Assembly: GCA_905236645.1 (NCBI GenBank)
Contig: CAJOMZ010000012.1
Coordinates: 1 to 64,000, forward strand
From: an uncultured Bacteroidales bacterium
Lineage (GTDB): Bacteria; Bacteroidota; Bacteroidia; Bacteroidales; P3
Length of the DNA: 64,000 nt
Direction: 5' to 3'
Shown: piece by piece, positions 3,364-51,492 of the stretch
Position numbering within the stretch: the first letter of the stretch is position 1
Layout: every line of letters begins with the position of its first letter
Position numbers and translations under genes: made by a program
Notes under the pieces: generated by a model
Database searches by the model: none
What the model saw: only the letters and a program-made list of their open reading frames with translations
What the model was told of the DNA's origin: nothing

Positions 3364-3834
3364 CTATTTACTTGTGTTTTCGATGTGTAGTCCTATGTTC
3401 CTGATACCGGGCAGCAACGTGTCGCGCATAGCGTGACTAATGATGAATTGGTAGTTGCCCTGCTGCGGGAAGTGGAAGTAGCAGAACGGGTAGCGGCCGT
3501 CGACATAGTGTCCGTTCTCCTTGCCCAACCAGCGCCCGTCGCGCTCGGCCAGCAGGAACTCGATGTTGGTGTCGGCTGCAACGCTGCCGTCAGGATATAT
3601 GGTAGTGATGAAGAAGTAGATGTTGGAGTAGGGGTAGTCGTTGCGGTTGCGGATGTCAATGCAGCACAGATAGGTGCTGTTGGTGTCGTCAGCCTCAATG
3701 TTGAACACCAGTCTGTCGTCCATATTCCAGCCTTGTTCGTCGATATGGCGGTTCTCGTTGTACAGCTCGTTCCTGTTGCACGAGGCGGCAACCAGCGACA
3801 CTGTAATCAGTATCGGTAGCAGTCTTCTATTCAT
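3364..3834 (-). CDS. gldH: gliding motility lipoprotein GldH
   Basis: ORF MNRRLLPILITVSLVAASCNRNELYN (lipobox), ~156 aa, GldH-like composition and position; start trimmed from the 226-aa track ORF. Confidence 0.75.
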   Translation of the reverse strand: MNRRLLPILITVSLVAASCNRNELYNENRHIDEQGWNMDDRLVFNIEADDTNSTYLCCIDIRNRNDYPYSNIYFFITTIYPDGSVAADTNIEFLLAERDGRWLGKENGHYVDGRYPFCYFHFPQQGNYQFIISHAMRDTLLPGIRNIGLHIENTSK

Positions 3835-6683: not shown

Positions 6684-6781
6684 GTTGACAATAAAACACT
6701 GGATATCAGCACGGTATGAGAAAACACCAAGACCGCACATAACTCGCTGTATGTCAGGTGCTTTGATGGGTCATCTTCGGT

Positions 6782-6874
6782 CGTTGTCCAGTCGTTGTCC
6801 AGTTGTTGTCCAGTTGTTGTCCAGTCATTGACTGGACAACAACTGGACAACGAGCGGACAACGACTGGACAACG
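6782..6874. repeat. Family A inverted tandem-array element, copy 1 (A1)
   Basis: Four 11-bp units (CGTTGTCCAGT x2, TGTTGTCCAGT x2), centre CATTG, then four inverted units (ACTGGACAACA/G, one AGCGGACAACG); 93-bp near-perfect palindrome centred at 6828. Confidence 0.97.
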
Positions 6875-7177
6875 AACGGTGTCGGTGCGGCGTTGGAGCG
6901 AAGAGGGGGCCTTGCTTCTCGGGCTGTGGCACGGGCGGTTTCGGGGACTGTCTGCGCGAGGCTGCGTTTTACGGGCTGCCGGATGTGGCATCAGGGGGGT
7001 CGGAACGGCGGTCGGTTTTTTTTCTTTGCACAATGGCTTCAGTATCGCGATATTTTTCGTAAATTTGCAGCAGCCTTTTTACGGGCTCTGCCCACTCAAC
7101 GCATTGATTGCTATGCTGTAATGCTCGATGCGGGGTGTTGGGGACTGTCCGTTTTGTGCAAAGTCTGTCGAATAGCA

Positions 7178-9065
7178 ATGAGAAACCAGTATCAAGAGCG
7201 CAGCACGGTTATCCGTATCATTTTCCTCACGGTGGGGCTTGTCTTCATCGTCAGGCTGGCCTTTATGCAGGTGTTCGACAGCGAGTACCGCCGCCAGGCC
7301 GACCGCCAGGCGCTGCGCCCCATAACGCAGTATCCGGCGCGCGGCTTGATATACGACCGCAACGGCGAGTTGCTGGTCTACAACGAGGCAGTGTACGACC
7401 TTATGGTCATTCCGCGAATGACGAAGGGGCTGGACACCAATATGTTCTGCCGCGTGATGGGCATCAGCCGCGACGAGTTCGACGCCCGTATGCGCAAGGC
7501 GTGCAAGTATTCCACCTATTCGGCGTCGCCCTTTATGAAGCAGGTGTCGAAAGAGGAGTACGGCTCGTGGGAGAACAGTCTCTACAAGTTCCGCGGCTTC
7601 TACGTGCAGCAACGCACGCTGAGGGTTTACGACAAGCCCATTGCGGCGCACGTGCTGGGGTATGTGGGCGAGGTGGACCAGAGCGAGTTAGACGCCGACA
7701 GGTTCTACAGGCAGGGCGACTATATAGGCAAGAGCGGCCTGGAGAAGTCGTATGAGGAGGTGCTGCGCGGCGTCAAGGGCAAGCGCATAATGCAGGTCGA
7801 CGTCCACAACCGCGAGATAGGCTCGTATATGAACGGCGCCTTCGACACGATGGCCGTGGAGGGAGGCAACCTCTACACGACGCTCGATGCCACGCTGCAG
7901 GAGTATGCCGAGGGGCTGATGGCCAACAAGCGCGGAAGCATCGTGGCCATAGAGCCGTCGACGGGCGAGGTGCTGGCAATGGTCAGCGCGCCGGGCTACG
8001 ACCCCAACCTGCTGGTGGGGCGCGTGCGCGGCGAGAACTACAGCAATCTGCTGCAGGACATCTCGCGCCCCCTGCTCAACAGGGCCCTGATAGAGCACTA
8101 TCCGCCCGGATCGATATTCAAGGTGGCCCAGGCCGTGACAGCGCTGCAACTGGGGGTCATCTCGCCAGGGTCGGGCTTTGTGTGCGACAAGTCGCTGGTG
8201 GGTTGCCACAACCATCCCAGCGCCCGCTCGGTGCAGGAGGCCATCAAGATGAGCTGCAACCCCTACTTCTACCAGGTGTACCGCCGTGTGATACAGCAGG
8301 GCCGGTACAAGAGCATCTATAAGGACAGCCCCTACGGGCTGACGGTGTGGCGCGACTATATGCTGCGCTTCGGCTTCGGGCAGAGGATGGGCATCGACCT
8401 GCCCGCCTCGGGCATCACGCCGGGCTTCATTCCCGACACGGCGTTCTACAACAAGAGGTACGGCCGCGAGCGCTGGGCGTTCTCGACCATCTACTCCAAC
8501 AGTATAGGCCAGGGCGAGGTGACGGTGGTGCCCATCCAGATGGCTAACCTGGCCTGCATCGTGGCCAACCGAGGCTATTACATTACGCCCCACTTGGTGC
8601 GAAGGCTATTACATTACGCCCCACTTGGTGCGATACTACGGGCCCGACTCGGTGCGCAACGAAGAGTTCTACACAAAGCACGAGACGGGCATCGGCAAGG
8701 CCTACTTCGACATTGCCGCCAACGGTATGTACGATGTGGTGCACACGGCCGGCGGCACGGCGCGCAGGGCCAACATACCCGACATCGACATCTGCGGCAA
8801 GACGGGTACGGCGCAGAACATCGGCGAGGACCACTCGGTGTTCATCTGCTTCGCCCCCAAGGACAAGCCGAAGATAGCCGTTTCGGTCTATGTGGAGAAC
8901 GCCCGCGGCGGTGGCGGATACTGGGCGGCGCCGATTGCGAGCCTGGTGGTGGAGAAGTACATACGCGGCGAGGTGACGCGCAAGGATGTGGAAAAGATGT
9001 ACCGCGAGGCGGCGCCTTGCCAGAAACTGCCGCTGACCAAAGTGGCCAAAAAGAAAAAGAAATAA
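7178..9065 (+). pseudogene. mrdA: penicillin-binding protein 2 with frameshift from a 31-bp tandem duplication (pseudogene, phase-variable allele or assembly artefact)
   Basis: Frame 1 (7178-~8633) has the PBP2 dimerisation domain, SIFK and SCN motifs; frame 2 (~8603-9065) has KTGTAQN (~8799) and the C-terminus; the two join in frame if one 31-bp copy is removed. Confidence 0.9.
8572..8633 (+). repeat. exact 31-bp tandem duplication inside mrdA
   Basis: AGGCTATTACATTACGCCCCACTTGGTGCGA at 8572-8602 and again at 8603-8633. Confidence 0.98.
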
Positions 9066-9068
9066 GCG

Positions 9069-10328
9069 ATGGAAACAAAGATAGACTGGGTAACACTGCT
9101 GCTTTATGCCGCCATCCTCGTTTTCGGATGGATGAATATCTACGCCGCCGGCTATGACGAAGCGCATACAGCCATACTGGACCTGCACACGCTGCACGGC
9201 AAGCAGCTGCTGTGGATCGGCATATCGGTGGTCATAGCCCTGGTCATCACGCATATCGACCCGCACATTTTCTCGTCGATGTCTTACATTATATACTTGG
9301 TTGTCTTGGGCCTGCTTGTGACGGTGCTCTTCGTGGGCACGGTGACCAAGGGCGGCTTGTCGTGGATCAACTTCGGCTCGTTCAAGTTCCAGCCGTCCGA
9401 GTTCGCCAAGTTCGCCACGGCCTTGGCGCTGGCCAAATATATGAGCTCGCTCGACCTCGACTACAGGCAGCTGCGCACCAAGCTGATTGCCTGGGGCTTG
9501 ATACTGCTGCCTGCGGGCATCATCATACTGCAGCACGACACCGGCTCGGCACTGGTCTTTGCCAGCTTCCTGCTGCCGCTCTACCGCGAGGGTATGTCGC
9601 CGCGCATCCTTATTATAGGGCTTGTGGCGGTGGTGCTGTTTGTGGTGACGCTGCTGCTCGGCAAGTACAAGCTGATACTGGTCGGCGTGCTGGCGGCGAT
9701 AGCGCTGTTCTACCTGTTCGTGTGGCTCAACAAGCGCACGCGCAGGCACTACATCTGGGTGACGGCCGTTTTCGCTGCCTGCACGCTGTTCATCTTCTCG
9801 GTCGACTTTGCCTTCGAGAAGGTTCTGCAGCCCCATCAGCGCGACCGCATCTATGTGCTGCTGGGCAAGACCGACGAGAAGACCAACAGCACCACGGGCT
9901 ACAACGTGAACCAGTCGAAGATTGCCATCGGCTCGGGCGGCGTGTTCGGCAAAGGCTTCCTGAAAGGGACCATCACCAAGGCCAACTTTGTGCCTGAGCA
10001 GGAGACCGACTTCATCTTCTGCACGGTGGGAGAGGAGTGGGGCTTTGTGGGCTCGACGCTGTTGATACTGGCCTATATCGGACTGCTGTTCAGGCTGGTA
10101 ACCCTTGCCGAACGGCAATACTCGAAGTTCTCGCGCATCTATGGCTACTCGGTGGCGAGCATCCTGTTCCTGCACCTGTTTATCAATATAGGTATGGCGC
10201 TGGGCCTGCTGCCTGTCATCGGCATACCACTGCCGTTCTTCAGCTATGGCGGCTCGTCGCTGATGGCCTTTACCATACTGCTGTTCATCTTTCTGCGTCA
10301 GGACCAGGAGCGCACCAACCCTATTTAA
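9069..10328 (+). CDS. rodA: rod shape-determining protein RodA (SEDS glycosyltransferase)
   Basis: SEDS family: GGLSWINFGSFKFQPSEFAK, QSKIAIGSGGVFGKGFLKGT, PLPFFSYGGSSL. Confidence 0.95.
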   Translation: METKIDWVTLLLYAAILVFGWMNIYAAGYDEAHTAILDLHTLHGKQLLWIGISVVIALVITHIDPHIFSSMSYIIYLVVLGLLVTVLFVGTVTKGGLSWINFGSFKFQPSEFAKFATALALAKYMSSLDLDYRQLRTKLIAWGLILLPAGIIILQHDTGSALVFASFLLPLYREGMSPRILIIGLVAVVLFVVTLLLGKYKLILVGVLAAIALFYLFVWLNKRTRRHYIWVTAVFAACTLFIFSVDFAFEKVLQPHQRDRIYVLLGKTDEKTNSTTGYNVNQSKIAIGSGGVFGKGFLKGTITKANFVPEQETDFIFCTVGEEWGFVGSTLLILAYIGLLFRLVTLAERQYSKFSRIYGYSVASILFLHLFINIGMALGLLPVIGIPLPFFSYGGSSLMAFTILLFIFLRQDQERTNPI

Positions 10329-25561: not shown

Positions 25562-25694
25562 ACCGTACCAACACCGCTCGTTGTCCAGTCGTTGTCCAGT
25601 TGTTGTCCAGTTGTTGTCCAGTTCCAGTCATTGACTGGACAACAACTGGACAACAACTGGACAACGACTGGACAACGAGCGGACTTGGTACGGT
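25562..25694. repeat. Family A inverted tandem-array element, copy 2 (A2)
   Basis: Core 25579-25677: four TTGTCCAGT units each way around CCAGTCATTGACTGG; outer arms ACCGTACCAACACCGCTCG / CGAGCGGACTTGGTACGGT pair with 2 mismatches. Confidence 0.97.
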
Positions 25695-31290: not shown

Positions 31291-31413
31291 GCACCATACC
31301 AACACCGTTCGTTGTCCAGTCGTTGTCCAGTTGTTGTCCAGTTGTTGTCCAGTCATTGACTGGACAACAACTGGACAACAGGACAACGACTGGACAACGA
31401 ACGGTGTTGGTGC
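31291..31413. repeat. Family A inverted tandem-array element, copy 3 (A3)
   Basis: Outer arms GCACCatACCAACACCGTTCG / CGAACGGTGTTGGTGC; four TTGTCCAGT units each way; one right-arm unit lacks ACT. Confidence 0.96.
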
Positions 31414-42098: not shown

Positions 42099-42323
42099 TT
42101 TAAAACGATTTTTTGATTGTTCTTAATGCTTTTTTCTGATGCAAAAATACACTTTTTTTTAATCGTGTAACCTTTATTTGCTTTTTTTATTGTGATTTTA
42201 TGTTTTTTTATGTTTTGTTGTCCGGGGCTGTTTTTGATGTTTAGTACCGCCAAAGGGCTTTTTATTGCACCCTGCCGTCGAGGGACGTCCGAGGCACTTT
42301 CGAGGGACCAACTCCGTCCGTTG

Positions 42324-42406
42324 TACAATATATGTACAATACTTGTACAATACTTGTACAATTGGTAAACGTACAAATATTGTACAAGTATTGTACATAT
42401 ATTGTA
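42324..42406. repeat. Family B inverted tandem-array element, copy 1 (B1)
   Basis: 36-nt left arm TACAATATATGTACAATACTTGTACAATACTTGTAC; 11-nt loop AATTGGTAAAC; complementary right arm with one mismatch; left flank ACCAACTCCGTCCG. Confidence 0.97.
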
Positions 42407-51321: not shown

Positions 51322-51410
51322 AGCGGGATATTTTGTGCAAAGGTACGAAAAATAAATCATATCCTGCTCCCGTTTTCTTCGGAAAATGTCCGTACCAACT
51401 CCGTCCGTTG

Positions 51411-51492
51411 TACAATATATGTACAATAGTTGTACAATACTTGTACAATTGGTAAACGTACAAATATTGTACAAGTATTGTACATATGTATG
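51411..51492. repeat. Family B inverted tandem-array element, copy 2 (B2)
   Basis: TACAATATATGTACAATAGTTGTACAATACTTGTAC, loop AATTGGTAAAC identical to B1, complementary right arm; flank GTACCAACTCCGTCCG. Confidence 0.96.

Follow-up and report, generated by a model that had tools for sequence, protein, structure and literature searches.

Reversible sequence duplications in pneumococcal capsule genes inactivate the gene in which they occur, according to the passage on them in PMC4243769 (citing Waite 2001, 2003). In draft genomes, scaffolding may insert Ns although the flanks overlap, leaving duplicate sequence, and other local assembly errors and wrong repeat numbers are also described (Chen et al. 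2020, PMC7111523). The locus compared with these systems here is an mrdA gene with an exact 31-bp tandem doubling, located in a window of 64 kb (the whole stretch of DNA analysed). We consider it likely that the organism lacks the second 31-bp copy, which would be a local error of the assembly.

The mrdA gene and its 31-bp doubling

By homology, nt 7178–9065 of the window is the mrdA gene for PBP2, and as written it would encode no intact PBP2. The 5′ part (nt 7178–8602, forward strand) starts at about nt 7178 (ATG, MRNQYQERSTV...) and matches residues 2–462 of the 593-residue profile TIGR03423 (pbp2_mrdA) with an E value of 6.9e-116. The 3′ part (nt 8604–9065, forward strand, stop at 9063–9065) lies in a different frame and matches profile residues 453–592 with an E value of 4.1e-25. 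Each part also matches MrdA chains in the PDB. The two halves follow the profile in order and together cover 2–592 of it; neither half alone (388.1 and 88.4 bits) reaches the profile cut-off of 455 bits. The gene call of the preliminary description was right. The SxxK motif (SIFK, nt 8111–8122) and the SxN motif (SCN, nt 8252–8260) are in the 5′ frame, the KTG motif (nt 8799–8807) is in the 3′ frame, and no single reading frame of mrdA as written holds all three. In the ORF list and translation, the 5′ frame continues out of frame through nt 8603–9157 of the forward strand, overlaps the start of rodA and meets its first stop at 9157, giving a product of about 659 residues without KTG. The rodA gene is intact (nt 9069–10328, forward strand; NF037961 RodA_shape, E value 8.9e-149, above the cut-off).

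Sequence inspection and a repeat search place AGGCTATTACATTACGCCCCACTTGGTGCGA on the forward strand at nt 8572–8602, and an exact second copy directly adjoins it at 8603–8633. The array is exactly 2.0 copies, in agreement with the tandem duplication given for 8572–8633 in the preliminary description. Because 31 = 3n+1, the reading frame of mrdA changes, and the frameshift ahead of KTG noted in the same description is equally real in the sequence as written. The last ten residues of the 5′ part, GYYITPHLVR, are also the first ten of the 3′ part, since a 31-bp doubling must produce such a repeat.

No further match to the unit with three or fewer mismatches was found elsewhere in the window, and shuffled sequences gave 0. 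Among units of at least 12 bp, no other is perfectly doubled in tandem within the 64 kb. The genome-wide repeat and gap checks used a sample of about 1.63 Mb, in which no other non-periodic exact doubling of equal length was seen. The base preceding copy 1 is G, compared with A as the last base of the unit, and the base following copy 2 is T, compared with A as the first. Flanking microhomology is absent, because the bordering bases differ from the unit ends.

Programmed frameshifting or independent initiation of the 3′ part might in principle give a working PBP2 from the two-copy gene, and an ORF starting with TTG at 8625–9065 exists that would carry KTG. The upstream frame, however, runs to 9157 and has no stop near the junction, no known slippery motif is evident by eye at the junction, and the arrangement occurs in no relative. 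Such translational bypass is extremely improbable.

Palindromic arrays are found at nt 6780–6875, 25577–25684 and 31308–31400 of the window. In each, about four 11-bp copies of GTTGTCCAGTT are separated by a short loop from the same copies in inverted orientation; one array is upstream of mrdA, between mrdA and a divergent gene. The arm pattern is matched 82 times in about 1.6 Mb of genome sequence. Arrays of TTGTACAATA, also with an 11-bp step and of similar architecture but with another sequence, are at nt 42317–42406 and 51404–51449, and their arm has 51 matches in about 1.6 Mb. No Rfam family was found in the window.

The locus in related genomes

A DNA search covered 120 genomes of the genus, including the window's own, and the site was present in 107 of them. 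In named genomes, a protein search returned 80 loci, all from Bacteroidales or Bacteroidetes drafts, mostly of rumen and gut. The unit is single-copy in all 109 related loci (85 distinct sequences), with both parts of the gene in one open frame; none of the 109 shows either a second copy or a tract of repeats at the doubling site. The nearest relative in the DNA search, G096, aligns 269 bases of a 300-base query, which is 31 fewer. The nearest by protein is L095 (isolate RUG13410), with 96% identity and one copy in its DNA; it is evidently the same genome as G096. A search for the same DNA in another assembly among viral contigs found none.

Compared with L095, the 5′ part displays a dS of 0.26, a dN of 0.020 and a dN/dS of 0.076, and the 3′ part a dS of 0.33, a dN of 0.024 and a dN/dS of 0.075. 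Relaxed selection on the 3′ part is rejected by this comparison. Because dN/dS is equal on both sides of the break, the sequences indicate that mrdA is a gene under full constraint until now, and a real break would be too young to leave a trace.

The broken copy is the only mrdA found; no second intact mrdA was found elsewhere in the genome. MreB (contig C90) and MreC (contig C38) are present with open frames, and so is RodA, thereby rejecting the idea that PBP2 became dispensable through loss of the elongation machinery. If the duplication is real, it represents a recent or part-time loss of the only PBP2 with the rest of the elongation machinery kept, which would be testable.

The reading that ranks second after assembly error is that the 31-bp tandem duplication is real and very recent and inactivates PBP2, being either fixed in the strain or carried by part of the population. 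The duplication would arise by a replication template switch, and slippage could remove it again. Among bacterial mutations, short exact tandem duplications are nothing unusual. The copies of the unit are identical, as expected from a recent event, both halves are fully constrained, so only a recent loss fits, and nothing marks the site as a join, there being no Ns. Nevertheless, the event would have hit the sole mrdA of a genome with otherwise intact elongation machinery, without flanking microhomology; it is seen in no relative, and the draft has demonstrable errors. A real recent duplication is possible but rather unlikely. No paper was found in literature searches on mrdA and tandem duplication or on rates of repeat deletion.

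The preliminary description proposed three options, namely a reversible slippage switch, a recent mutation and an assembly error. The list is right, yet the switch is not supported, no duplicated relative having been found among the 109 loci. In such a switch the 1-copy and 2-copy forms would change into each other, switching PBP2 on and off. It is mechanically possible, as precise loss of a perfect adjacent repeat can occur, and the reversible sequence duplications of the pneumococcal capsule operon provide a precedent. Besides the single-copy relatives, it has to contend with a site that offers no microhomology, no repeat tract on which slippage might act and no special DNA structure, the junction being ordinary (fold z-score 0.52), and with a single-copy, constrained gene in a draft where join errors are visible and further conserved genes are broken. 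As a core cell-wall enzyme, PBP2 is a poor candidate for on/off variation; this general knowledge makes a switch surprising, yet it is no evidence by itself. We regard the switch as very unlikely. Population-level on/off variation of PBP2 through gain and loss of the 31-bp copy in an uncultured member of the Bacteroidales from gut or rumen is likewise hardly to be expected; if it were true, cell shape or beta-lactam response would vary too.

The draft assembly and the second copy

The draft genome, which is probably metagenome-derived, comprises 172 contigs and 2.375 Mb, with 91.3% completeness and 4.8% contamination. The sample of about 1.63 Mb contains eight N runs of odd lengths, 2–38. The run of 17 Ns at nt 3591–3607 of contig C4 (L040) has the same 17 bp on either side and marks a scaffold join where the overlap went unmerged. 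Outside repeats, contig ends dovetail in two pairs, by exactly 99 bp each, which suggests that the largest k-mer was about 99 or 100. As a simple cause of the mrdA doubling, a k-mer overlap left over from assembly is therefore rejected, because the contig ends overlap by 99 bp and not 31. A systematic 31-bp artefact is rejected as well, since about 1.63 Mb holds no other such doubling and no cluster. As for the same kind of error elsewhere in this sample, a single N gap is bordered by identical 17-bp stretches, and no second N-free doubling comparable in length and complexity to the 31-bp one was seen.

Tandem runs of 7 bp (CGGAAAG/GCGGAAA) were also observed in the draft at L065 1–136, L052 4389, L074 620–780 and other places. 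Some lie where contigs begin or end (start of C21, end of C17), and they probably break the assembly.

Compared with G096, nine of 351 conserved genes are broken in the draft: three at N gaps, mrdA, one by a 1-nt insertion, which hits a GDP-fucose-synthase-like gene, and four by indels, which the alignments show to be deletions of about 10–13 bp in conserved non-repetitive DNA. The breaks by insertion or deletion are at L067 14873, L056 ~7926, L091 ~9654, L207 ~10010 and L039 ~17040. In the reverse comparison (325 genes) six are broken; three of these correspond to breaks already counted in the draft, and the remaining three can be put down to G096 or to the ends of genes. The excess of N-free breaks in the draft is modest, five besides mrdA versus these three, and is not leaned on alone. 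Separately, a 1062-residue protein at L091 11673–14861 was compared with L230, where the relative's match occurs twice, and both copies change frame near residue 845.

An assembly error is favoured because the relatives are single-copy, both halves are constrained, and the draft contains other join errors. Two pieces overlapping by 31 bp would have been joined, or the gap between them filled, with the overlap unmerged, and the stretch would thus be written twice. A length of 31 bp could still result from filling a gap with reads or from joining two short overlaps; the exact assembly step is our inference. The organism would then carry a normal, intact mrdA in single copy, with rodA after it. 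In keeping with a duplicated overlap at a join, the relatives are without the second copy, and the gene is otherwise intact and constrained. The zero microhomology at the array ends also counts in favour of an artefact, whereas the lack of Ns at the doubling is a point against a join error.

The doubling is mainly a caution: a broken core gene in a draft needs a read check before any biological reading. Conserved genes are broken at the few-percent level in this draft.

Comparison with described systems

In simple-sequence contingency loci, which vary by slipped-strand mispairing in short repeat tracts, the frame follows the copy number, as it does in mrdA. In contrast to these loci, mrdA has two copies of a 31-bp non-repetitive unit that is doubled in none of the relatives, and it is a core cell-wall gene.

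The pneumococcal capsule duplication (Waite et al. 2001, 2003; PMC4243769) is closer in form, being a doubling inside an ORF that inactivates the gene and could be lost precisely. Reversible phase variation is reported for the capsule in that passage of the source, whereas at mrdA nothing indicates variation, and the gene encodes the only PBP2.

A local assembly error at a scaffold join (PMC7111523) differs from the mrdA doubling in two respects, as the mrdA site is without Ns and its 31 bp does not equal the 99-bp contig-end overlap. The likeness lies in the short exact duplication inside a conserved gene of a draft, and in another join of the same draft where identical 17-bp flanks surround Ns.
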